NCBI GenBank assembly: GCA_019096195.1
Contig: JAGTXK010000095.1
Location: forward strand, 124,001 to 188,000
From: Boletus sp. NGJ
Lineage: Eukaryota > Basidiomycota > Agaricomycetes > Boletales > Boletaceae
Reading direction: 5' to 3'
DNA length: 64,000 bases
Both the position numbers and the translations under genes were made by a program. Below the pieces are notes generated by a model. That model worked only from the letters and a program-made list of their open reading frames with translations, was not told where the DNA came from and ran no database searches. Shown one piece after another: positions 46,233 to 63,705 of this stretch (the stretch's first letter is position 1; each line of letters opens with the position of its first letter).

Positions 46233-49024
46233 CATTAGTAAAAACAGGACTAACTGTCTAGTGCTGGACAGTACTGGACAGTAACATAGTGCTCATAGTG
46301 AGGGTCCAAGTGGATAGTGGTTTGATAGTACTATGACAGTGTCTCATAGTCTGTTCATAGTGTGGCCATAGTCTGTCATAGTATTCTCAGTGTCTCATAG
46401 TATTCTCATAGTACTTTCATAGTGGTCATAGTACATATTCCCATAGTATCTCATAATGTGGTCATAGTGATGCCATAGTATATATAGTGCTTCCATAGTG
46501 GCTTAGCAATTCTAATTCTCATTCTAATTCTAATCCAATTTCAAGCCAATTTTAATTTCAAATTCAATCAAATATTAATTCTACTAATTCTAATTCTAAT
46601 CCCAGTCCCAGTTCCAATCTCAATCCTAATCTCAATCCTAATGATTTACAAAGTAAAGTGTTGACTTCATGTAATGAGTAGAGAAGGATAAAATTAAGAA
46701 ACAAGAGAGTATGGGAAAGTTTTTGAAGTCTGGCTTGTTTATATAAGAATGGTGGCACAAACATTGGCAAACAATGTCCGCTTTTTTAACACTGAGTGTG
46801 GGAAAATGGACTTGGATATTTTTTAAATGTAGGTCTATACTTTTGGTACACTATGACTACACTTTTACTACACTTTGGTGTGCACTTTTGGTACACTTTT
46901 GGTACACTTTGTTTGCTACACTTTTGCTACATTTGGTGCGCATTTTTGCTACACTGTATTACACTCTTTCCTATACTTTTTGTACAACATTTGACTACAC
47001 CTTTGACTACACTTTTTGTATACTTTTGATTTAGGTTTAGGTTTAGAATTAGCTTAAAATTACTACTATGACTATGACTACTATGGATGTACTATGAATG
47101 CTATGAAATGCTATGGTATTATGACACTATGATACTATGAACACTATGAATACACTTTCAATACTATGACACTATGAATACTATGAACACTATGAAATGC
47201 TATGGTACTATGATACTATGATACTATGCACACTATGAATATACTATGGATACTATGAATACACTTTCAATACTATAATACTATGGATACTATGAGTTAT
47301 CTATGAAACTACTATGGCACCACGAGCACTATGATGAAATCCTGTATTTACTAATGTCTTGTGGGCAAGGTGTGCCTTATCCAGGTGTGGCATGCTCTGT
47401 GGCATTTTCTAGAGTCAAGAACCATAGGGACCAACTCTAGTATGCACAAGCCAACTACTACCACACACACAGCCAACACTTGCTAATGGACAGCCATCTA
47501 AGACAGATATAGTATGCACTGCTCCCACAAAGGACAGGACACTGGCAGTGGCAGACAGGTCAGCATTGCTGGAGATAAATGACTGGAATTAAAGATAAGA
47601 AACCTGGTTGAAGAAGCCTGAACTCTCGTGTTTCCCAGGAGGTAGCAGAAGCCTCTAAATTCGATGTTGAAGTTGGTGGAGTGGTTTTGTTTCACCACCT
47701 GCAGGGCGACATGTTGAATGGAGGATGAGGCAGTCGCTATTTCTGCCAGCATCTGTGCAGAGGGTGCACACCTGTTGCACTTGTGAGTCGTGCCACATGA
47801 CAAAGATTGTGGCAACTGCATGCCTGCAAAAAGGTGCTAAAGAAATGAACACAGTCTGAGTTGCCAGTGAAAAACGTCGGAAGTGGCGGTGGTGTGACGA
47901 AGTTCTTCACACATTAGTAAATACAGGATTTCATCATAGTGCTCATAGTGCCATAGTAGTTTCATAGTAGTCATAGTAGTTTCATAGATAACTCATAGTG
48001 TTTATAGTATCATAGTATTGAAAGTGTATTCATAGTATCCATAATATATTCATAGTGTTCATAGTATCATAGTATCATAGTATCATAGTATCATAGCATT
48101 TCATAGCATTCATAGTACATTCATAGTAGTCATAGTCATAGTAGTAATTTTAAGCTAATTCTAATTCTAATTCTAATTCTAATTCTAATCCTAAATCAAA
48201 AGCATATAAAATGTGTAGTCAAAAAGTGCACAAAAAGTGTAGTCAAATGTGTAGTCAAATGTTGTACAAAATGTATAGGAAAGAGTGTAGTACAGTGTAG
48301 CAAACAGAGTGTAGTAAAAAAAAGCAAACAAAAGTGTAGCAGAGTGTAGTACAGTGTAGCAAACAAAGTGTACCAAAAGTGTACCAAAAATGCGCACCAA
48401 AGTGTAGTAAAAGTGTAGTCACAATGTGTACCAAAAGTGTAGACCTACATTCAAAAAATATCCAAGTCCATTTTCCCACACTCAGTGTTAAAAAAGCGAA
48501 CATTGTTTGCCAATGTTTGTGCCATCATTCTTATATAAACAAGCCAGACTTCAAAAACTTTCCCATATCCTCTTGTTTCTTAATTTTATTCTTTTCTACT
48601 CATTACATGAAGTCAACACTTCACTTTGTAAATCATTAGGATTAGAATTAGGATTGGGATTGGGATTGGGATTGGGACTGGGATTAGAATTAGAATTAGA
48701 ATTAGAATTAATAGAATTAATATTTGATTGAATTTGAAATTAGAATTGACCTGAAATTGGATTAGGATTAGGATTAGGATTAGAATTAGGATTGCTAAGC
48801 CACTGTGGAAGCACTATGTATACTATGGCATCACTATGACCACTATGGAAGTACTATGAGAATACTATGAGACACTATGAGAATACTATGACAGACTATG
48901 GCCATACTATGAACAGAGTATGAGACACTGTCATAGTACTATTAAACCACTATCCAGTTGGACCCTCACTATGAGCACTATGTTACTGTCCAGCACTGGA
49001 CAGTTAGTCCTGTTTTTACTGATG
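46233..49024. repeat. Composite palindrome: two inverted TIR units around a 553-base spacer
   Basis: Left arm 46233-47357 and right arm 47911-49024 are inverted copies of each other, differing by scattered substitutions and small indels. The spacer 47358-47910 is single-copy within the window. Each arm has its own terminal inverted repeat: CATTAGTAAAAACAGGA at the outer end of the left arm and TCCTGTATTTACTAATG at its inner end, and the same for the right arm. Inside an arm the order from outside in is: CATAGT-rich zone, AATTCTAATT-rich zone, a unique stretch, a TACACTTTTGG-rich zone, then an ACTATGA-rich zone complementary to the outer one. No clear target-site duplication. No transposase is encoded; it looks like a non-autonomous (MITE or foldback-like) DNA element. 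Confidence 0.85.
47358..47910. other. Spacer of the composite palindrome
   Basis: Unique sequence between the two arms, higher in GC than the arms. A minus-strand frame through it (QMLAEIATASSSIQHVALQ, FRGFCYLLGNT) has some coding flavour but no match I can name. It may be captured host sequence. Confidence 0.4.
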
Positions 49025-49181: not shown

Positions 49182-49538
49182 TGTTATGACCACTCGTAAC
49201 TGGGTGACACGTTACCGCGTAATCGACCGCGGTTGATTACCGGACTAGCTGGACTTGAGCAACTGGCTCCCCTAGGCCCGAGTTCCCTAGGCATGGGGAC
49301 TGACAGCTAGCTTTACGTAGAGTCTCCTCCTCTAGAGAGAGTGAGGGATGTCCCTATGACCAATGGCGGAGTCTTGGACTTTGAGGATAGTGATGCCTGT
49401 TGTCCTATCATTCTACAAGGAAACCCTTCTTGTAGAGGCCTGTGTTGGTGTTGGCGTTGGTTAGATGTGCGAACAACCTTTCCCGAGCAGAACCCTGTCT
49501 GCGTAGATGTCGTCGCTGGTTAAGCGTGCGAACAGGTA
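49182..49538 (+). mobile_element. Solo LTR, Ty3/gypsy-like fossil
   Basis: A 357-base unit starting TGTTATGACC, bounded on both sides by the 5-base direct repeat GTATT (49177-49181 and 49539-49543), the target-site duplication expected of an LTR element. No coding sequence of the element adjoins it, so it is a solo LTR left after LTR-LTR recombination. The intact target repeat suggests it is not very old. It resembles the LTR-like sequence at the right end of the window. Family assignment to Ty3/gypsy is inference. Confidence 0.7.
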
Positions 49539-49869
49539 GTATTGTCGGAAAATTGGAAGTTTTAATTCAATGGATTGTAAGGTATTGCAATGCCTAAATA
49601 GGGTATTACCATTACATTCATATTGAGATAGTAAAGGTCCAATTGAAATAGCATGCTAATCGGGATTTCAATTGTTGTTGCAATGGGATTCGGACATGGC
49701 CGGTATCATTTTGATCACGTGTGTGATTGCAAAGCAATTATATCGTGTGAATTGTGAGAAGATTACAATGTGGCTTACAATGATATCATGTGAATTTTGA
49801 TTAGATTACAATGTGGCATGCAATGATGTCATGTGAATTGTGATAAGATAACAATGCAATTGCAATACG

Positions 49870-50175
49870 GTCACAACAGGGGGTAAATCCATAAAAAGAA
49901 AGTGTGGCACAATCTCAATTGTGTGAGAATCACTGAAATAGGCCAATCCAACTGGCCAATGAGAATTCTCTTTTATTACTTTTGGGACCGGGATTTGAAC
50001 TTGTCACTGCCAATCTGACTGACCAATCAGAATTGTCTTTTAATGCTATTGGGACTGGGATTTGAACCTAGGACTTTGTTCGTTAGTACCCCAAATCATT
50101 AGCTACTTTTACTATAATTACTACTCACCTCATCAATAGTTAACCATTAGGCTATGTACCCACAACTACTCTAGA
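49870..50175 (-). repeat. tRNA-derived SINE-like unit with a duplicated B box
   Basis: On the minus strand an RNA polymerase III A box, TAGCCTAATGG (50144-50154), is followed 75 bases later by a B box, GGTTCAAATCC (50058-50068). A second B-box-like copy, AGTTCAAATCC, lies at 49991-50001. Each B box is followed by a similar stretch (CCCAGTCCCAATAG / CCCGGTCCCAAAAG, then AAAAGA.AATTCT.ATTGG), so a unit of about 67 bases is tandemly duplicated. The 5' part (GGGTACATAGCCTAATGGTTAA) looks like a tRNA half. It is not a good functional tRNA: spacing is too long and the acceptor stem does not close. Confidence 0.5.
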
Positions 50176-50337
50176 ACCACACTTCAATATATTGGACCTT
50201 CACATATTACTCAGAGTCAATCTAAAGTGTACCACTGAGTCAATAGCAATAGATACTTAACATTCACAACTCGATTTAAACAATGGATGAACATTGATGA
50301 CATGTATTAGAATCCAAATCATGCCTATTATAAGAAT

Positions 50338-52101
50338 CTATTTAGCAGCACTACAGCGTGTGCATCGCACCACTGCACCATTCACAGCTGCTTTATTACC
50401 CTTATTAGTACTGCGTGCCCTTCCATGCCCTCTTGCTGAAACAGACTCCTCAGGATTGTCCAAAACCTCCTCTAACATCTCTAGACTAAAAGCCACTTCA
50501 CCTGCCTGTGGGTTTGGAACTTGGAGTGACACCACAGAAGCCTGCTCAGTACCAGCAATGTCATTGGATGATACAATTTCCGCCATTGTGCTGGATGATG
50601 AGCTAAGGGCAGACTCTAGAAGATCTGAGTTTTGGAACTCGGAATGAGGTACTACTGGCAGTGAGTCAGAATCTGACAGTGCCATTGCCATGGCAGCCAT
50701 AGTGGCATCAATGTCGGCTGTGAAATCCTCATTTATTGTCGCGGTACCTAATGTGTGAGCCTTGGTTTTGCCAAAGACTTGTTGGTTGACTTTGCTGACC
50801 AAGTCAAGAACATACAGTGTGTCCTAGCTGTTGACGAAGAGGCGCTTGTACTGAAAGAACAGTTTGTGATACTGGATCTCAGAGTTGGCACCAACACCAT
50901 CCTTAGGAAACTGGGAATCAGGCAAAACAAGAAAGACTGCCTATAATTTTAATCGAGCAAGTAACCATTAGGGATTCAGACAATTTAGATACAAAAACAG
51001 AGAAATCTGTACTGACCATGATGGCGGCCCATGCAAGGCACCCTGGAGTACAGCAGGTTACACCCCATATCGTTCCATTGGATTTCCCACCAGGGCGGCG
51101 TGTGACATCATGTGTGAGGGCAGTCCATCCCCAAAACACAATATGAAGAATCTATGATTAGAAAATGATTCAGTTAATATCAATGAAGAGTAGAGTGACT
51201 GTATAACATACAGAAGTGAGTAACTCCCAGTTAGAGAAGGGAGTGCATGCATTGACTTTGTGATCAGTATAGAGAAGTGGCAGGAATGTGGAATACTTGG
51301 GCTTGGTGGCGTCCTGCGGTATTCCGAGTAGTACACAAATTTCTGGGAACTCAAGGCGACGAGAAGCAGTATCACAGCTGAAGTAATGATTGCCAGAGGG
51401 CAGTTGAAAAAGGTCGTTGGCTGCCTGACGAAGTTTGTGGAGTTCACTAGATTGGCCAGTGCTAACATGAGTCACTAACTGAGTTATTGATACATCAGTT
51501 CATATGTGATATTAAATTGAATCATGAATATAACATACCTGATCAGTGAAATGTTGTGACATTCGGAGGTTTTGGATGTGAGGTGGAAGTATTGAGTCTA
51601 GCTCTGCAACAATCGCTGCTTCCTCCACAAGGCTTGATGCACAGTGGGCCTTACCGACAATCTCTAATGACACAGGTGATGTGTTTGATACACTGGGAGT
51701 TAGTGGGTGACTGAGAACGTCTTTCGATGGAGGGAACATTTCAATCAAGACTCCGAATTTCTTTGTGAGAGTCTGTATTTTGGTATCAAAGGTGCTGAGC
51801 ACCTCAGGGACAGAAGCTTTCGTTGACTTGCGTGATCTGTTTGCCTCAGCAATGCGAACCTGCTCCTGTAAGACACGACACTGTTCTTTCACAGCATCAA
51901 GCTCAAGCTGTGCCTGCCTCAATGCCTGTTCGACACATAAAGATCAGTTCCATGGACTTGAAGTGTTGAAATCAATCGCGGGTCGTTGCTTACCTCATCA
52001 TTCTGGGTTTCCACTGTGGCTAGGCGGGGACGGATGACGACAGGTTCATCATCATCGAGATCCAGAAGAACATTAGCAGCACGACCAGAGATAGCAGGCA
52101 T
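50338..52101 (-). CDS. DUF6698-type protein, possibly interrupted
   Basis: Multi-exon gene in a family common in Agaricomycete repeat regions. Start at 52101 (MPAISGRAANVLLDLDDDEP). A coiled-coil segment (LELDAVKEQCRVLQEQVRIAE) is followed by DTKIQTLTKKFGVLIEMFPP. The next exons read SSELHKLRQAANDLFQLPSG, FSNWELLTSILRIVFWGWTAL, then NGTIWGVTCCTPGCLAWAA, the most typical DUF6698 block, and YHKLFFQYKRLF. A TAG follows RLFVNS in the reading frame near 50823-50825, after which the frame continues (VLDLVSKVNQQVFGKTKAH) to an acidic Ser-rich tail and CTRCSAAK. The stop may be real damage, a read-through of a mis-set intron, or a variant. Function unknown; it lies on the same strand as the Plavaka transposase. 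Confidence 0.6.
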
Positions 52102-52329
52102 GGTGCAGATTGTGCGAGGGTGGAGCAGAGAGCTGTATAACAGGTAATGTAGTTAAGGAGGAGTGAAAGACGACACAAATAGATGCGACTCACCATCCAG
52201 TATTTAAACCAAGCAAGCATAATGAATGGGGATATGGGACCAGGAAGCACAAGTCAGTTGACGTGTCAATGATACGCCCCACCAGGTGCTGTGGAGACCA
52301 TCATCCGAGCATCTTAGCGTTGAATGCAA

Positions 52330-53116
52330 TGTTACATCACATTTCTGGGCTCACCTCGTTTAGAAGGTCTGGATCTTCCTGAATATGTACATTGACCTTC
52401 ACCCGATATTGTCAAGCAATCCAGGAGATGTGGGGCATGGTCACGTCGCTGTTGTTGACGTGTTATGGCGGTGATTTCGGGGTTGTGGACTTTACTATTA
52501 CCAAAGTCGCCGCTCCCGATTTGATCCGAGTCTGAATCAATTCCTTGTTGAAGCAACCCGGCTATCATTCACTGCAGGTCTGGCATGTTGGTGTCAATAG
52601 AGGGGTGGGATAGGGAGGTGTTGCGAAGCCAAACCATTTGATGTTGTACACAAACGGGTCTTGAGCGTGGTTTGAGGGATGGATGGTCCAAAGAAGAGTG
52701 AAGCCGAGCTGGAGCTCGAGAGATGTGTTGTACTAGATGGGCATGGCGCATTGTCGGGTGCATTTGGAATCTGCAAGAATGGATGTGGCCCACTACTGCC
52801 AGTAAGCCGTCTGTGGGGGTAATAGGAAGTCGCTCGCTGATGAAGGAAAAACATTGTGGACAACAGACTTCCGATTCTGATTGGCTGACGGAAAAGCGAC
52901 TGGTGGCGACTTTGATGCACGTCTATGTTTAGGACTTGATATGTCAGGCTATACATGAGCCAATAATCTTTCAGTACAACAGATGCTTAAAGAAAGAGCA
53001 AAACGTACCTGAGATGAAGCAGATGGTGGTGTTTGATTCACACTCTCGAGAAGCTCGAGAGATATGGGCCTTGAGCGAGCCCATCTTTTGAGAATGTGAC
53101 CCCCAGGTGAGATTGC
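52330..53116 (-). pseudogene. WEE1 fragment, copy 2 (N-terminal region to glycine-rich loop)
   Basis: Sequence similar to the first part of WEE1 copy 1. It begins at the chimera junction near 53117 with SPGGHILKRWARSRP and LELLESVNQTPPSASS, continues after an intron with YQVLNIDVHQSRHQS, then NAPDNAPCPSSTTH and SASLFFGPSIPQTT, and ends with LPIPPLYRHQHARPAV near 52570. It skips most of the N-terminal region present in copy 1. Past 52560 traces of the kinase start remain (DQIGSGDFG). Frames shift between these blocks. A degenerate host-gene fragment carried in the repeat island. Confidence 0.6.
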
Positions 53117-53950
53117 CACCGCAGAGATCTTTTCCTGTGGAATGCTGAGCGTGTGTAAAGTCGTAAACTGGGGCATTTCCCAGAGTCCAAAGACACCAGT
53201 GGAGAAGCCGACGACGAGGAGATTGGATGGAGGGTGGAACATCGTGCAGATGACCTTGGTGTTTGGGAGGTTGAAGTAGTGTCGCTCGCGAACTCCCCAC
53301 CAGGATCATGGCGATGGTATCCGAGGCACCGGATGGTGTCAGTACCACCAGCGCAGGGGTCGTCATCGTCAGTCTCCATATCTTGGTCGGTCATGGCTTT
53401 CCAAGTGAATACTGCACCGTCGCGACTCACGGTGTATATCTTCAAGAGACGTCAAGATTCAAACTAGACAAAAAGAACTCAATCACGTACGAGTATTTGA
53501 TTTGGAGGAAAAATAAGTCCCAATGACCGCGTCACGATGACCTGCAAACATTTTTGGGCAGAACCCTTCCACTGGGTTCAGAGTGAACAACCGCGCTGTC
53601 ATGTCCCGAGACATCGTGATAAAACACCTTGAAATGTAACATCGAGTTAGCCAACATATACAAAAAAAAACTATCGAGACGACAAGACAAAAAGCGACAC
53701 GCACGTCAAATCTGGAGCCCAGCGAATGGTCGATACTGCATCATGATGTCCTGTATACGTCCGATGCAACACGAATGGTGCAAACTCGCGCACGAGATGA
53801 TTGGGAGTATGCCACACCTGTATGTGTGCGTCGTGCGTCATGGCAATATATCTTGTCCACGCGAGGTCGAAATAACAATAACAACACGTGTGGTGGAAAC
53901 ATGTGTGGATGGTATGTATCAGCCACCAAAAACCCAACAAGTGATGAGGC
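53117..53950 (-). pseudogene. PWP2 fragment (WD40 part of the small-subunit processome protein)
   Basis: Reads, in order along the minus strand, FDLAWTRYIAMTHDAHIQVW, TPNHLVREFAPFVLHRTYTG, HHDAVSTIRWAPDL, SRDMTARLFTLNPVEGF, FAGHRDAVIGTYFSS, YTVSRDGAVFTWKAM, REHYF-like VRERHYFNLPNTKV and FGLWEMPQFTTLHTLSIPQE. These are consecutive WD40 blocks of Pwp2/Utp1, a U3 processome component in pre-rRNA processing. Only this middle piece is present, introns are kept, and there is a frame change between FTWKAM and VRERHYF. It enters from WEE1 copy 1 inside an intron (between about 53870 and 53958) and is fused in frame to WEE1 copy 2 at 53117. A captured genomic fragment, not the working gene. Confidence 0.8.
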
Positions 53951-56730
53951 AAACATACCTGAAGATGTCGGCAGCCTTGCCAAACGTCCCTTGCAGATTC
54001 AGAACTTCCCGAGCCAAGTACACCTTATCACCTTCACGTTCGAACCCCCCTAACGAAACACCTAGGGAGCTTCCTCCACTAGTGTGAGGCCATAACGACG
54101 CCATTCCAAAATCACCAATCTTGAAGCGGCCTTCCTGGGTCAAAAAAATATTTGCTGGCTTCAGATCCAAGTGGATGACACCTGACTCATGAATGAACCG
54201 AAGACCCTGCAAAAAAACACAAACATGAGTAACATGGAACTACGAACTAATCCATATCTGGCAGAACAAACAACACATGTCCCACTCACATTACTCAAGT
54301 CCGCGAATACTCTCCAAATCCTGGCTTCGTTCAGTCGCGGATATACCTTGCCATACTCCCACAGGAAGCATGCAAAGTTCCCGAGCTTGCAGAGCTCAGT
54401 ACGAATGAACAGCGCCTCATCCTCTTCCCAGCTATCAATATATGTGAGGACATTAGGATGATGTCTGCACTGTCTGTGGCCGCAGCCCTGCGGAGGTGTT
54501 GCAAGACGTCGACCTCTTCACGCAGACACAATCTGCCAGGGTGAGAATAAATTACACGGACATTAAAGATAAAGATTGTAGCCACCTACCGGTGCCGGGG
54601 TCCTTCAAACAGCTTAGACCATTTAACAGCCCATAGATTATCCGATGACGATGGTCCATTCTTGGATCGAACCTTGAGGACCTTACCAAATTCACTGCTA
54701 CTGATTTGATCAATCTCCACAAAATCTTTGTCAAAGTGACCCAGCTTATCGTTCACTGCGGGTCTGGCATGTTGGTGGAGGGGTGAGATAGGGAGGCGTT
54801 GTGAAGTCAAACCAGATGCGCGATGTCGCGCGAGTGTGGGCGAATTCAATGTGATCACAGAACTATTTGATGATGATCGAGAGCCGGGCTTCTCCGAAGG
54901 TAAGTGAAGTTGAGGCATCGCAGTAGCAGATATTTGCATCGGAACGCGCGGATGAATAGGCCAATCTAAATTGTATCGCTTCTGCATCAATATCCAGTTG
55001 GTAGATCCGCATAAAATTAGAGATTACCTTTGTTGCGTTGCATTGGAGTTGCAAGGAAGGTATCACTTCCACTTGAGAACACTCCACTGCTGCTTCACCG
55101 CATTAGCCAACATGTCCGCTCAACAGGTCCATATGGCACTGGTGGGCATCTGAGCCCAAGACCATCATACTTATTCGCCTCCTTCCTCATACTTGGGCTG
55201 TTCTCTTCGTCCTTGTCCTCATCAGACCCTTGCAGATCTGCCACCTTCTTAGTGCCAAGTGGAGGAAATGCTGCGGGCAAGCTCTTCTGGGGCCCGTTCT
55301 TTGTTTTACCAGCAGGTGCTGCTCCAAGGTCCAACCCTCCAAAAGTTAAACCCAACTTTGGCAGCCACAGCACTTTTCCAGGCCGGTTTCCTCTGAGATA
55401 TGTATTCTTGAGCTTCTTGACCAGTGTACCAGGTGGCTTCTTTGATTCCTCAGCCAAAGGTTTACCACCAGATGCAAGCATTCGGAGAATAAATGCATCA
55501 ACGTCCACTGCATCATTCCTTCGGAAGTTGTCGTCTGAACCATTAATGACAAATGCCACCGGCCAACCTGAATTAGGTCCAGGCATGACACCCGGTGTGA
55601 TCAGATCATCCCTGATATCTGAATTTAAAGAAGACACAGATGTCGAAGTACGTGGCATAGCCAAGAGTGAAGTGCCCCTATGCGATGCATTTTTATCATC
55701 ACTCAAGGCAACGCCTGAATCGCGAGATTTATATTTCAATGGAAGCATATTTTTGCCCTTCTTTGACCTGGGGGATGGGGTGCCCTCAGTCATGCTGAAC
55801 ATGAAAGACATCTCGGGTGGACCGCACGGCTCAAAGAACATGTCGTCCTCGTCATCTGTGACATTGTGACTGCCATGAAGTAATGACACAGGGGATGACT
55901 CTGGCGACGATATGTTGAGAGCAGAACACCATGGAAGTCTAGTAACCGCCTCGTTGCCAGGTCCTGCGTAACTGTGTCTGTTGGATACCAATGTATGTGC
56001 ACTGACACGAAGTTTGTCGGCTGGTGAAGCGGCAGCATTGGATGCTGTATGCAAACAGGTCCCGGTTGTGGTTTGAGGGATGGACAGTCCAAAGAAAAGT
56101 GAGGCAGAGCTGGTGCTTGCGAGACGTGTGGTAGGTGGGCACGGCGCATGGTCAGGTGCATTCATCTGCAAGGCCAGATGTGGTCCACTACTGCCAGTAA
56201 GGCATCTGCGGGGTATTGGGGAGTCGCCCGCTAACGGAGGAGAAACACTGGGGACGACGGACTTCCAATTCCGATTGACTGACGGAAAGGAGACTGGTGG
56301 CGACTTTGATGCACGTCCATGTTTAGGACTTGATATGTCAGGCTATACATGAGCCAAAAAAAAAAATTAATACAACAGACAGTTAAAGAAAGAAGAAAAC
56401 GAACGTGAGATGAAGCAGGTGGTGATGGTGTTTGATTCACGCTCTCGAGAAGCTTGGTAGAAACGGGTCTCAAACGAGCCCATCTCTTCAGAATGTGGCC
56501 CCCAGGTGATATTGCCTTGGTCAGCTCGTCAAAGGCACTACCCTTCTGTGGAATGGCTTTGATGGTCAGATGTTGAGGTGCCTAGACTTGAGCGCAGATC
56601 AAGTCTGATCTTGGAATGAAAAATTTCTTTTTGACAGTCGTTCTGATCCATAATTGACGGAGAGTCCAGGCCAGGAGGTTTGATGGGGCTGGGAGGGAGA
56701 AAGAAAGATGCAGACCTTGTCATCATCATT
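53950..56730 (-). pseudogene. WEE1 kinase fragment, copy 1 (N-terminus to activation loop)
   Basis: Wee1 phosphorylates Cdc2/Cdk1 and delays mitosis. This copy begins near 56730 (SASFFLPPSPIKPPGLDSP), passes AFDELTKAISPGGHILKRWA, a long N-terminal region (MSFMFSMTEGTPSPRSKKG, RDSGVALSDDKNASHRG, DDLITPGVMPGPNSGWPV, DAVDVDAFILRMLASGG, KSLPAAFPPLGTKKVAD) and the kinase domain (FDKDFVEIDQISSSEFGKVL, LREEVDVLQHLRRA, SGVIHLDLKPANIFLTQEGR, KIGDFGMAS, GTFGKAADIF), then stops in an intron. Defects: TGA for Arg after CWLMR near 55095, a one-base frame change near 56550, the glycine-rich loop reduced to SSSEFG, and LAREVL for LAPEVL. It is truncated and cannot be functional. Introns are retained, so it was copied as DNA. 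Confidence 0.8.
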
Positions 56731-57242
56731 GAAAATAACGATGGTTATTGGTGGGTACTTGCTAAAATAGCGTCGTGATGGACAGGATGGGACCTTGCAA
56801 TACTATTGGGTTACTCAAAAAGGAGATTGCGACTGTTCAGCGCAATCTGTCCTTTTTTGAAACAACATTTGAATCGTCATGTATAGAATTAAAGTCGTAT
56901 CTGAATCATACACACTATATACCCATGGATGCCACCCACCAAGTGCCAGCGAGAGGTGTCTGACAGTCCAAGCGATTCGCAGTTCGCACTGTAGGTCATT
57001 CCGAATCACTGACTCAAATTAAAAATGCCATTGACACTTGACTCAGATATCGGAATCTCTGAATCTGCCAAACAGACGACATGCATTGTTGGAAAGAACA
57101 GCTGTATCTTGTACTGTGAGCTGTGATTTACGACTGAATACAATCCCAGTGGAAAGAAATTACTTACGACATTGTTCTGAATCGTCGACATAGATACAGT
57201 CACATAGAATTTACAAGTGCTGAACTTTGTTCTGTCAACGAC

Positions 57243-60200
57243 TCAGTTGTAGTGACCTGCATCTTGATGCATTTTCTGCATATGAAGAAACATGTCAGTA
57301 TCGACAGTGTCAATCACCAAGTAGTCGCCTGGTTGAGTATAGTCCTCAACAAGAGCGGCACCACGAACGATGGATTGTACAGAAAAGATTTCCGATGATG
57401 CACGTGGTCGAGCACGCAGTCGGAAAAAGTCAAGATGTTTGTCTTTTCGTGAGCGTGCTCCATTTGGAGCATCATAAGGGTGCACCAAAGCGAGGGCGGT
57501 CTTCTTGATGGCCAGACACTTGAAGATAAAGAGAAGCCGGCCAAAAATATGGCCATTCTCAGTCTTGATGATGACACAGTCATACCGAGGAGTACCATGG
57601 AAGGATGGGCTGCAGCGTAGGTGATCTGTGTGTTCGCACCAGTCAACCATGGATTCGTAGTTGACTTTGAGGTAACGATACTCAATGACCTGTATATACA
57701 TGTTGATTGTGAACCCAAAGGATGATCTCGATTAGTAAATGTGTACCTGATCGTTGGCATTCAGCTGGATGTTCCGGACACCCTGTTGATCGAGAAGCAC
57801 CCGTCCAACATGCGTATAGTTGAGGAAGTTGTTGATTTTGATACGAAACCGTTCGAACACAGGATTATTGCTATGTGTCATCTCAATGACTTCAAACGAT
57901 TTGGGGCGTTGACGGGATCCAACCATTATGTGGAGGTCTTCTTCGGGTGGAGCGACGTTGGGATCATTGTCATCTGAATCGTTACTAGGATCGTTGGGGT
58001 CACCACAAGTCAGTCGGACATAGTCAGCATGTTCTTCAATTTTGCATCGTATATACTGTGATGAAAGTTGATCATGGTCGACACGAAGAATCTATCAGTA
58101 CAATCAAGTGAGCAAACTTCTGAAGCTGATTCAGGGGATTCATTATACATACTTGTTCCGCAACGTTCTTGAAATTGGTCCGCTGTTGATAGCTTTGTTT
58201 TAGAGGGCCATGCATCTTTTCGTTCGGCTTCGTATTGTAAACACGTGTCGCACCTTTCGCAAGGATGTCATCAAAGACATGAGTGCGGGTGTGGTTCTTC
58301 GGGAATTCCCAGTTTTTCGGGTCCTTCACTCTATCTTTTGTCTTTTGGATGTAATTCTGTTAATATGAAGCTACAGTCAGTCGTAATAATCAGAGGACTC
58401 AGATATTGTCAACCCAGAGGACATACATTGAGCAATACTGAAAGGGAAGTGAGTGCTTCTTGGCCACTTGTGATCGTATTTGAGGTTTGCACCTCGAGTG
58501 CGATATAAAGGTCGAACATGACGTAGGCGCGGATACACCGGAGGAGGAGATAGCCAGCACAATTGTCTTGCTCTGTAAGTACACCATGGCTAGCAAAGAC
58601 CAGAATCTATGAAGTTTGTCAATGTAATAATAAAGGAAACAGAATTAAATGGATACAGACCTTAGAAATATCATCTTCCTTGCTTCCGTCATTGAACTTC
58701 ATCTCGAATACATTATCAAAATGATATAGTCCTCGCCACCTCGGCATTGCCGAAAACCTGTGAATGACAATGAACCAACAATATAGAACACATGAAAAAC
58801 GAGTGACTTACGCTTGCTCAACCTCGACCACCGCAGCTCGCCCTATACTGTTGATAACCACCTTCAATTCAACAAATAAATGGTCACCAAACATTCCTTC
58901 CTGATTGGCATGGAGGCGGTCAAAGCTAACAGCTACATGGGGATCGGCACACTCCACGATCCTGAACACATTCTAACAAGGCCATATTAGTTCGAGCATT
59001 ATTAATTGAAGGAAATGTTTCAGCCAACTCACATCGACATCTCGTAAGCTTTCACCTGATAATATAGCTTCTTTCTCCTCGGCGGATCCAGCCTCTCGAG
59101 CACACTGAATTGTCTGGAGGACTTGTTCAATTGAGCGGGGCTGGAATGGCCCAGATTGCCCAGGCTTAGAGAGCTCTTCGTGCAGGATTAGGCAGACCGG
59201 ACAGGGGAATTTTGACATGACGCCTCGAATAAGGGTCATGACACATCTGGATATGATACGCTGTTAGGCCACATCATCAACGTTAATATTAGAAACTCAC
59301 TGTTCCTCATAGTCAGCCGATAAAATAAGAACCCGGGGGAATAGCTGGCGAGCGATCCCATCCCAGCACTTGACCCAACAACCAGACTTTGAGTGCCTTG
59401 CAATTGTTTCAAGGAGAACTCCAAATGACGCATGCCATACAGCCATCTTGAAGTTTGCCCATGCGGGCTTTCCGGTATGACCCTTTTCTTCTCTCACCTG
59501 CAGATTCGGATAGCAATGTTATTACTGTCAATATCACCATGATTCCTATCGAATGAGCACGTACGACAGGGAGCCAACCAACAACTCGGCCTCCACCGAG
59601 TCCTTCACCATTCCGAATGACTGCAGGCAAGTTGGCAAGGCGGGCGACAACAGGATAGCCCTTCTCGCGTCCAAATGATGATAGCTTTGCTTTGTCAGCA
59701 TAGAGAATGAATGCGAGTACTTTACCGTTGGCCGGGAGTTCAGTCTATCATAGTATTGGTTATAACAGGGATGAAATAGAATATAATTTAAGTTCCAAAG
59801 GTACACAGCTAAATGATCAACAGATATGAACGTACTTGGAAATTCCAGAAACGGTCAGCGGTGTAAGGTTCGTCGATGAAACGTATAAACGAATTCCCAT
59901 CAAACTTTGACAAACGTTGCGCATCAAAAATACAGTGAGGACCCACAGAAGGATCCTTCACAAGATCGCATGCCCGAGTCCCAAAGCGACCGATACCGCA
60001 TACGGAATTGGCGTGGCTCAGGCTCGTTCTGGTACTGGACAGGGACGATGGACGATTGGAACTGACTCAATATGCATCAATTAGCAGGTTAATGTAACAG
60101 TAGTGAAGTGTTCTTACTGGTGTGAGACGTGTTCCACTGGCATCCCACAACGCTCGGAGATCAGCTTGGTTTGTGATCGTGAACTTCTCACGTTTGTCAT

Positions 60201-60943
60201 GCACCCTGTCGCAGCAATTTGATCAGGCGCTCAGTTTGGTTTTTGTTGAGAGCGGCTTCCAAGGCGAGCTCGGCGACTTCAAAGTCAAGTAGGGTACGAA
60301 ATGGATGCCATGGATCTCGGTCTGGATCAGGCTTGGGTGGTTTGGGGAAATGATTGCGGGAGAAGTTGGAGAAGTTGAAATTTTCAGTTTTGCGTTCACT
60401 ATGGGGATGGTATTCAACACGAATGTCGTCTAGTTGAGGTGCTCGGGCGCCTGGATCATTCCAAGAGTTTGAAAAGAGTACTGAATAATATATTGTTGTA
60501 CTCACCTGAGCGGTCACTTTCGTGACCATCCAGAACCATGTCGCCATCGTTTGCATTGACGAGGTCCTGATCATGCACCCATGCATTGTTTTCCAAGCCT
60601 GCAACAAAATAAACACATGTGATGATGTATGCTCATCTGCGTACCTTGGAAAGCACGCGGGACTACACGTGAGTCGGGGAGCACAACTGCAGAGTCGTTT
60701 GACGTCGAGGCAGCTATATAATTTAAATAATACATGAATAATGTCATCAGTGAAGTTTAACTATTTGCAATTTAAGGCAGGATTACAGTGCACACCTTGA
60801 GAAACCTTTTCGAGCAGGGCAAGGTCTTCCTGATACTTCTGTTTTTTTCTCGCGCAAGCTTTCCGATGTGGAGGTAGACCGGCTGACTGGAATTGTTTGC
60901 CACATATTTCACACTGGACAGGTTTTGATCGGTCTGGAGGCAT
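57243..60943 (-). mobile_element. Plavaka-type (CACTA-like) DNA transposon, transposase gene
   Basis: Multi-exon gene of roughly 1,000 residues on the minus strand; the start at 60943 gives MPPDRSKPVQCEICGKQFQS with a C-x2-C...H-x3-C zinc knuckle. Next come PKPDPDRDPWHPFRTLLDFE and VAELALEAALNKNQTERLIK, a near-diagnostic Plavaka block. The core has VLAFILYADKAKLSSFG (first likely catalytic Asp), GWLPVVREEKGHTGKPAWAN, VKCWDGIARQLFPRVLILSA then DYEEQ (second likely Asp), FPCPVCLILHEELSKP, a block WRGLYHFDNVFEMKFNDGSK, and FDDILAKGATRVYNTKPNEK then MHGPLKQSYQQR. The end is QDAGHYN. I see no break, so the transposase may be whole. Introns are short and regular. Element ends not located. Confidence 0.85.
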
Positions 60944-61051
60944 CCAGAGAAGTTCTATGAATATTGAAAGGACAAGGGGAAGAGTGGAATAGTGTATGGA
61001 ATGATGGTTGTTGAAGGGAAGGTGAGAGGAGACCTTGAGGCGCACAGTCAA

Positions 61052-63705
61052 CGAACAGAAGCTTAGCCATGAGGCATCAGCGTAATCGCAATCGCACTGC
61101 GATAAGATTACAACTCCGCGTCAAACTGTAGCCTTATCTCAATTATCATTACAAGAGCACTACAAGTGTGCCTAATTGCAATAAGCGAATAAGTTTTCCG
61201 GCATAAGAAAGCCGCATAAGTGTGAAGTGATGAGAAGAAGTATCACAAGCACAAGTGTCATCACTTCCAGAGTGGGTGCAGACCCTGAAGTGATGTGGAA
61301 CCGAGAATTGAGTTGATTACATGGTAAGAAGTGTAGATCAAGGTTAAGGGCTAGATGAAGGGCATATGCCTGTATATATAGGCCTTCCCAATCTAGGGCA
61401 GGCTTCTCATTGTATATAGTAATATGAGATTGCAGATTGAATATTACTATGAAAGGAGATCAAAGACATCAGATGAATAAGGAAATGGAATACTAGGCTA
61501 TGTATGAGAGAATATAGCTGAGGAGGCAATGTCTGTGATCGAATCAGAGGTGAAATACATATAGGTGAAATAGAGGGCTGTGTCACAGCCATAGTGATGC
61601 ATCGCCTAGAAGGAGAGTTCTGGATGAGGCAATGCTTGTGTGGGTGTCATGGGGGAATCCTAAGTTGTAGAAGTCAAAGAGTAGGTTGTTCCAGAGTCTG
61701 GAAGGGGGCAAAGGAAGGAAAAAAGGTATACCCCTTTCCATAACTGTAACAGTATTGATGAACCATTGGATAGATTGTGAGATGCATGATTAAACCTATT
61801 CAAGGTGGTCTGTTTGAAGCTCTGGTATATGTACCATTCCTCGAGATGAGCTACCTGGGGTGTCAATGTGATGCCAGTGATGATGGCCTCCTTCAGCCTA
61901 GATGGAACTGATGCCAACAATTGAGCGAGCAACCTCTGACCTGGATAGCACTGGGGATGTCCTTGTGCCTGAATCTGAGTCCTGATTGCAGAGCCAGAAA
62001 GTGTGCCCTTTCAATCAAATGGGTGACAGAGCAGCAAATTCATACTGTCATCCAGTGAGTTCTGCTCTTCAATCCATTTGTTGGATCCAGTGTGCGTAAG
62101 GACCATGAGAAGTGGGAGAGGGATAAGGATAAGTTTTACATATTCGGTTACCCAGAGATTGAAATTGACAAGGGAGTGAGGAATCCATTGGGTCAGGAAT
62201 GGAGTACTGTCATATCCTGTGTAATTCGACAAGTCCAACTCTGGCACTCTGTCCATAACTCCAGCGTGTTCTCCCTTGGAGTACATCCTCGTGCCCTCAG
62301 ACTTGTAACACCCTCACTATAGTATTCATACTTCTCCTTTCGTACATAACCTATGCTTCTTCATCTGTCCTAGTCCCACCTTATAGTTGTCTCTGACCCA
62401 GTGTCTGTCTCGCTTAGGAGCACTGCTCTGGTGAGGTCCCATCTCTGTCCCGTTACTCATTACACCTTACGAACTCTGTTACTAATACCTTCATTCCGAT
62501 CGTATATAAACTCTCTGTACTACTCCTGTAAAGTCAGTTTGAATATCAACTCTGAACACTCCTCCTGTCTCCCATCCAAGTCTTGATGACTCACTCTGAC
62601 TCTCTGCTTGACTTGATGTTTGACTACGTTAAGTCCAAACCTCTGATCCTCCTACATCTTTGAAATCCGGGACATCGGACTCGAGCAAGGGCGCACCACA
62701 TAAGGTGAAGCCGAGTCCCGACACCCTCAAGTAACTCCGGTCCTTCAGAGTTTCATTGGAGTTGTCCGTTCTTAACAAGTATGCTGCCTGTGTTTGACAG
62801 ATAGCTTGTATGAAGATTGAATGGTGAGTAAGCCTGATGAGCTTGGGCCAGCAACACCCTTCAACCCCTGTGTTACAATTCACCACTATGTTCATCTTTT
62901 CTTTCATTATTTTCTTCATCCTCTTTGCTGTCTCCGCTCATTAGACCATACATCAACCAGTCTAGGCCTCTGTTGACATGTCTACCAGTTCCCCTTGGCC
63001 CTACCAGCCGATTACTATACTTTTATGACTCACATGGAATCCCTTTCATCTCTGCCTTCACTTTCATGGGATTCCACTGGCTTCTATATCTTACTCATCC
63101 TTTCCCATTGACTCGAAGGCTCCCACACCTTACATATATAAACCCAACCCTAAATACAATGTCTGCTAAGTAGAACCTACTTGAATCTACTCTCAAATTG
63201 TCTTCAGGATCCCTACGAGTCCTTGTCCTTTTAACCATGTGAACTCCGGTAGCTACTCCAGCTACTCATCCTTGTGAGGCTCTTCATAGTCCTTGATCTC
63301 TGTGAAGGAAGACCCTTCGCATCTGCATCTCTGGCAGTCCTCAACACTGTCTGTCCCTTGTCCACATCACCTAGTTGATGTGCGTCACCTTTCAAGTCTA
63401 CAACTGCCTCTATCCAAGTCTGTTGTAACAAAAGGTTCTACTTGATCTTCGAGGTTACTGCCACATAACCCTCCACAATAGCTTATCAATGACCTGCCCT
63501 TGACCCCAGTTGGTGACACACTGCTTCACCTACACCACCTGACACAGAACACTCTGACACTAATGAGGACAACACTCTCAGTGACCTTGACCTCCCGTCC
63601 CAACAACAACAGGACAATGTCTTTGACCTGTCACAACATTTTGCTTCAGGATTCTGTATTCCATAGAATTTCACACCCCTGTCCCCAATGCCAGTGACAG
63701 CCATC
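61052..63705. mobile_element. Repeat-derived sequence, probably decayed LTR-element material
   Basis: About 2.65 kb without a host gene. The left part (61080-61340) is rich in ATTACAA/GATAAGATTACAA motifs also seen near 49740-49870, and may be subterminal sequence of the Plavaka element. A palindrome GAAGTGATG/CATCACTTC lies at about 61226-61270. Minus-strand traces such as VPELDLSNYTGYDS and RLKEAIITGITLTPQVAHLE resemble gag-type sequence of LTR elements, but weakly. Broken and old; family uncertain. Confidence 0.35.

Follow-up and report, generated by a model that had tools for sequence, protein, structure and literature searches.

How a fragment of the ribosome-assembly gene PWP2 came to lie between two partial copies of a cell-cycle kinase gene is the question raised by one stretch of the Boletus sp. 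NGJ genome. This stretch, the window, spans 64,000 nucleotides (C35:124001-188000) and was compared with a genome of 32.8 Mb in 141 contigs, designated here by C and a number. We consider it highly probable (roughly 0.85) that positions 49543-61203 are a Plavaka DNA transposon carrying transduplicated pieces of two host genes. That a DNA transposon had captured these pieces was suggested in a first-pass annotation of the window, and this is supported here by the element ends, a TA duplication, unoccupied target sites, multiple copies and native genes elsewhere.

Pieces of two host genes

Alignment to the native genes places the PWP2 fragment at 53108-53940 (one intron end, three exons of which the last is partial, and two complete introns) and shows it flanked on both sides by WEE1-family fragments, all on the minus strand, as the first-pass annotation had described. 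WEE1 copy 2 (52498-53117, minus strand) consists of a piece of an N-terminal exon, a portion of the following exon and the start of the first kinase exon, and has lost ∼1.2 kb internally with a join near 52636. WEE1 copy 1 (53941-56724, minus strand) is a longer piece of the same gene that presumably reaches kinase subdomain VIII/IX; the kinase C-terminus is absent, ∼440 bp are missing near 56570, and beyond that point the sequence resembles the native 5' region only weakly (70 per cent over 158 columns).

The alignment to full parental genes that had been proposed as a check recovered both of them, at 90–91 per cent identity and with introns retained, as had been claimed. Window positions 53108-53923 match native PWP2 (C127:326485-327301) at 91 per cent (745 of 823 columns, introns included), and the main exon of that gene is open for 645 amino acids and matches Periodic tryptophan protein 2 with 792 bits; on this match the captured piece can be firmly assigned to PWP2. 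Positions 53941-56570 match a native kinase gene (C107:123654-126271) at 90 per cent, again with introns included. The kinase exons of the native gene are open; a model begun at the first ATG, a tentative 5' start, stops after 152 codons, and that ATG (L016 592) lies outside the part matched by WEE1 copy 1. Among the best 60 of 741 matches to solved structures, the native kinase part scores highest with PKMYT1 (137 bits) and next with WEE1-like kinases (87–91 bits), which places it in the Wee1/Myt1 family, and 'WEE1' is used here in that sense. It had also been asked whether the parental loci adjoin each other; they lie on different contigs, with 49 kb or more between each locus and the contig end, and are therefore not near neighbours.

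The two joins differ in kind. At junction 1 (53108-53117, minus strand) a PWP2 exon runs into a WEE1 exon in frame, with PWP2 ...KISAVAIS fused to WEE1 ...SPGGHILK (fused reading SIPQEKISAVAISPGGHILK), across either 3 bp of exact or 10 bp of imperfect microhomology. The match between 53102-53117 and 56501-56516, with one mismatch, was confirmed. The short shared stretch behind the proposed microhomology breakpoint is thus real, but its extent was overstated: only TCA is exactly common to the parents (chance ∼0.05), and the 10-base stretch has eight matches with the native gene and nine with copy 1 (chance 0.003 and 0.0002). Junction 2 (53940/53941), which the earlier annotation had missed, fuses an intron of WEE1 to one of PWP2 within a predicted chimeric intron of 107 bp (53852-53958, minus strand) that has a WEE1 donor, GTATGT, and a PWP2 acceptor, AAG. 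The donor follows ...ADIF AG and the acceptor precedes A TAT ATT GCC; since both introns are in phase 2, splicing of the chimeric intron would keep the frame. Being intron to intron in the same phase, junction 2 is the better case of exon shuffling.

The Plavaka element and its copies

The element is 11,661 bp long (49543-61203) with termini TGTCGGAAAA ... TTTTCCGGCA, and its boundaries are defined by comparison with unoccupied sites. The flanks 49441-49540 and 61206-61300 are contiguous in four of the six repeat loci compared (C50 twice, C89 and C65), and are interrupted by a gap of ∼10 bases at C88 and ∼90 at C79. The unoccupied sites read GGTAGTGAGAAAGCC (C50) and TAGCGAGAAAGCC (C89, C65), from which a TA target-site duplication is placed at 49540-49541 on the left and at 61204-61205 on the right; to judge by these related repeats, the site before insertion would have been GGTAG-TA-AGAAAGCC. 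The target is a dispersed repeat (49480-49540, 61206-61330), and its right flank occurs in at least 38 further places (40 of 219 candidates scored). One study describes PlavakaA elements as having 2-bp target duplications and termini TGT..ACA (PMC12730594). The window copy has the 2-bp duplication on both sides and the left TGT, preceded by one extra T between TA and TGT; the right terminus, GCA, is one base off. In C102 and C107, too, the left end is preceded by TA; right ends were not found there.

Host sequence thus lies between element ends, and it is multiplied. The transposase half of the element occurs in four places (C35, C126, C56 and C1; four of five rows, with the remaining row a short match at the native kinase locus), and all four of these copies carry the chimera with different left flanks. 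The left end of the element occurs in six places (6/6 rows), namely the four chimera copies, C102 and C107. The search for further copies of the chimera that had been recommended accordingly brought the chimera to these four copies, and junction 1 recurs in C126, C56, C1 and, as a fifth locus, C102. The C126, C56 and C1 copies are 99.93–99.96 per cent identical to one another with different left flanks, and therefore spread recently. C102 has copy 2 and continues past junction 1 for ∼41 bases of the PWP2 side before it diverges, similarity being lost at 53158. The C107 copy is broken within copy 2 by an insertion that looks Tc1/mariner-like by eye (L028 from 2104) at a point matching window 52804, and the 3,001 bases past this point showed nothing similar to the window. 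Neither C107:343613, cut by this insertion, nor C102, with its loss of similarity at 53158, was retained as an intermediate with the whole passenger.

A mis-assembly, or a set of ordinary neighbouring genes, might account for the locus, and three of the four copies do lie at contig ends. However, the window copy lies in the interior of a contig of 534 kb, both parental genes are on other contigs, and the same junctions turn up again beside other flanking DNA. This explanation, which the first-pass annotation had named as a finding that would overturn its proposal, is therefore extremely improbable.

The two WEE1 copies need not have been captured separately; a single capture may have been duplicated later within the element, for which we would give slightly less than even odds. 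In favour of this, private differences are equally numerous in the two copies (38 and 39 of 474 columns), and at a further 22 sites both differ from the native gene in common, but their extents and internal deletions differ, and C102 has copy 2 with junction 1 and no copy 1 found there. The equality of private differences also led us to reject the idea, based on native identities of 84 against 90 per cent, that copy 2 is older than copy 1.

The copies are themselves mosaic. Between the window and C126 there are 121 substitutions in 49570-54993 and 14 in 55762-61139, an ∼8.6-fold change in divergence that falls exactly at a 768-bp deletion (window 54994-55761, absent from C126, C56 and C1). The simplest reading of this pattern is that recombination or template switching took place between copies, and we infer that the captures may have arisen by a process of the same kind. 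As the element was being repaired or replicated, copying would have moved across to the WEE1 and PWP2 loci, or to intermediates derived from them, at sites of little or no homology, and the product would have been rejoined into the element and then multiplied by transposition, the strand and frame having been preserved at both joins.

The transposase gene (57243-60943, minus strand; modelled to 57732, with a last exon assumed at 57243-57731) matches PF18759 as a spliced model with 115.6 bits over profile positions 57–322, against a cut-off of 26.3. Its single exons each fall below that cut-off, and a six-frame PF18759 search of the whole genome placed none inside the window among the matches listed (at least 131; 123 of 188 candidates scored). 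The window copy has one 1-nt frameshift near 60.2 kb, where the frame is continuous in C126. A second gene (50257-52101, minus strand; a model with uncertain last exons) encodes a DUF6698-like protein that scores 22.0 bits with PF20414 (E 1.5e-4), just under the curated cut-off of 23.7, and its DNA occurs in six places in the genome. The passenger is located between the transposase gene and the opposite element end. Near the left end, a ∼58-base stretch at 49943-50067 is repeated in tandem (85–88 per cent) in all six related places and is perhaps a subterminal repeat, and three tandem 43-bp units at 49735-49863 are possibly transposase binding sites. Outside the element, short CTATGAACACTATG-like repeats make up a long, imperfect palindrome of 2.8 kb at 46233-49024, the arms of which are up to 98 per cent complementary, and repeats that look similar by eye occur in the left flank of the C102 transposon copy.

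Decay, constraint and the open reading frame

The captured DNA has lost CpG in a manner that fits cytosine methylation. In the window PWP2 piece, 31 of 160 native CpG positions have become TpG or CpA, compared with C>T or G>A changes at 13 of 269 other C/G positions (Fisher P 4e-6); in WEE1 copy 1 the corresponding counts are 90/374 and 52/1004 (Fisher P 8e-22), and the same trend is seen in C126 (41/160 vs 14/269 and 64/270 vs 35/695). These CpG-type changes, mostly post-capture, fall on replacement sites at nearly the rate expected by chance and are near neutral: 48 are nonsynonymous against 55.8 expected in window WEE1 (P 0.03), 17 against 20.4 in PWP2 of C126 (P 0.12) and 12 against 14.6 in PWP2 of the window (P 0.17). 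Changes since the split of the window and C126 copies likewise look near neutral, with no sign of constraint, the ratio of nonsynonymous to synonymous changes being 12 to 9 on the C126 side and 6 to 0 on the window side.

Other differences are scarcer at 0-fold sites. At non-CpG sites, divergence from the native gene in WEE1 copy 1 is 41/1287 at 0-fold sites, 37/338 at 4-fold sites and 23/244 in introns, and in window PWP2 it is 9/333, 5/74 and 11/154, respectively. When every difference to the native genes is counted, both stops and amino-acid replacements fall short of the random expectation in five of five comparisons, with one in-frame stop against 6.3 expected in WEE1 copy 1 of the window (780 codons) and weak stop deficits in PWP2 (P 0.25 and 0.17). 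That expectation, however, includes substitutions on the constrained native branch as well. For the same reason the raw ratio of nonsynonymous to synonymous rates in PWP2 (∼0.24–0.26) and the amino-acid deficits were set aside as proof of selection on the chimera. The deficit implies either that the divergence accrued partly in a constrained gene, on the native branch or in a pre-capture donor lineage, or that the chimera was once constrained.

It is in this context that capture in a related lineage should be considered, with the element entering this genome later by horizontal transfer or introgression, such that part of the 9–10 per cent difference to the native genes would be host-lineage divergence. 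Such a history is favoured by the surplus of silent relative to replacement differences at non-CpG positions of WEE1 copy 1, although the CpG changes look near neutral; slow decay together with some early constraint would, however, yield a similar pattern, and we regard a foreign donor as possible though unlikely.

Several observations weigh against the favoured explanation of a transposon with transduplicated host pieces. The 0-fold divergence is lower than would be expected of a piece taken from this genome's own gene and carried without selection ever since, and no microhomology was seen at junction 2 in the comparison of the parents. Moreover, both element ends are seen in the window copy only: the C126, C56 and C1 contigs break off within the element (at an identical base in C126 and C56) so that right ends are unseen, and left-end similarity starts late, leaving 27, 28 and 19 bases unmatched, respectively. 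The full transposon structure of these three copies is therefore not demonstrated; the C1 left end still shows TGTCGGAAA before a short gap.

With native-type splice sites and with translation begun, by our choice, at a methionine inside the first kinase exon, the predicted splice product in each of C126, C56 and C1 is one open frame of 517 codons across both joins. The model contains five GT-AG introns in phases 2, 0, 2, 2 and 0, and its product runs from a truncated kinase through the WD40 part of PWP2 to a WEE1 piece, matching the Pfam kinase profile at positions 5–181 of 263 as well as WD40 families. Upstream of this frame in the same copies, the 768-bp deletion sends the preceding WEE1 exon into a stop (read by hand). 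The same model in the window copy meets 12 stops and four frameshifting indels within the part that matches the sister frame. The in-frame PWP2–WEE1 fusion claimed in the first-pass annotation is thus real at the junction, but in the window copy it is open only locally, and of the exon shuffling that it proposed the frame-keeping joins stand whereas a working shuffled gene is too strong a reading of a broken copy.

Such a gene, of the element or of the host, would be transcribed, spliced across the chimeric intron and translated as a truncated kinase–WD40 protein, for example a decoy for WEE1 or PWP2 partners. Beyond the 517 open codons and their domain matches, the indels that the window and C126 have in common within exons all have lengths divisible by three (+3, +6 and -3; 3/3) compared with 1/6 in introns, a count that excludes indels at junction 2 and at alignment ends, the 768-bp deletion, one indel private to C126, and -1, +1 and -9 changes of the window in the exon lost from C126. 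C126 also has no stops against 2.75 expected at random in the WEE1 part (P 0.046) and 1.56 in the PWP2 part (P 0.17), an expectation subject to the limit on native-branch changes given above. Against this, the open frame amounts to a single case, its three copies being almost identical; an in-frame stop is present in WEE1 copy 1 of the window; and both the CpG-type and the post-split changes are near neutral. The glycine-rich loop of the captured kinase is altered from GSGEFG to SSSEFG, the kinase C-lobe is incomplete and the start methionine is internal and of our choosing. A working chimera is accordingly quite improbable, and the chimera is most likely a passive passenger because its product would have neither a complete kinase domain nor a complete propeller. 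As a passenger of the Plavaka element it would be decaying in silent, methylated chromatin, as the CpG loss suggests, the window copy having taken four frameshifts while a recently spread sister lineage retains the open frame.

Probable gene capture in a fungal cut-and-paste transposon

Gene capture by cut-and-paste transposons is known mostly from plants. Transduplication in fungi is already published for other transposon families: a hAT element of Pyrenophora tritici-repentis carries a histone H3-like gene and a Tc1/mariner case is described, the authors calling theirs in 2013 the first in fungi (PMC3538342). There, too, an element with terminal inverted repeats multiplied host-derived sequence between its ends, and the long form keeps its transposase; their cargo is an H3-like gene and other coding regions in hAT and Tc1/mariner elements, whereas here a Plavaka element carries fused fragments of two genes with introns kept. 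The Plavaka elements with TET/JBP cargo likewise combine a transposase with an extra cargo gene (PMC12730594), but that cargo is a dioxygenase gene (in PlavakaB) rather than gene fragments, and the right terminus here is GCA rather than ACA. The same source places Plavaka near EnSpm/CACTA, the group to which the Pack-CACTA and Pack-TYPE elements that capture coding DNA are related (PMC8903248, PMC13317346). Pack-TYPE elements are non-autonomous (PMC13317346), whereas transposase DNA is present in all four copies here, in C1 as far as the contig reaches. Animal Pack-TIRs and their FoSTeST model (PMC8277862) resemble the present case in being multicopy, with distant parental genes, some breakpoint microhomology and chimeras, although here the captured DNA sits in a fungus, inside an element with its own transposase. 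Helitrons of Pleurotus ostreatus also hold genes inside a basidiomycete transposon, theirs being a rolling-circle element (PMC4289320). In searches of the open-licence PubMed Central literature, judged mostly from their listings, no case of a Plavaka element capturing host-gene fragments turned up.

It is conceivable, though quite improbable, that a young Plavaka lineage is spreading an expressed kinase–WD40 gene, in which two housekeeping genes are joined in frame once intron to intron and once exon to exon; if true, exon shuffling would have been caught during its spread, with decayed and open copies within one genome. This one genome holds the parents, several forms of the capturing element, broken and open chimeras, and mosaic copies with a visible break, which makes it possible to test directly how the capture came about, by template switching or by gap repair, and what becomes of its product. 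The locus shows how transposons can assemble new gene combinations from host pieces, here a cell-cycle kinase and a ribosome-assembly factor.

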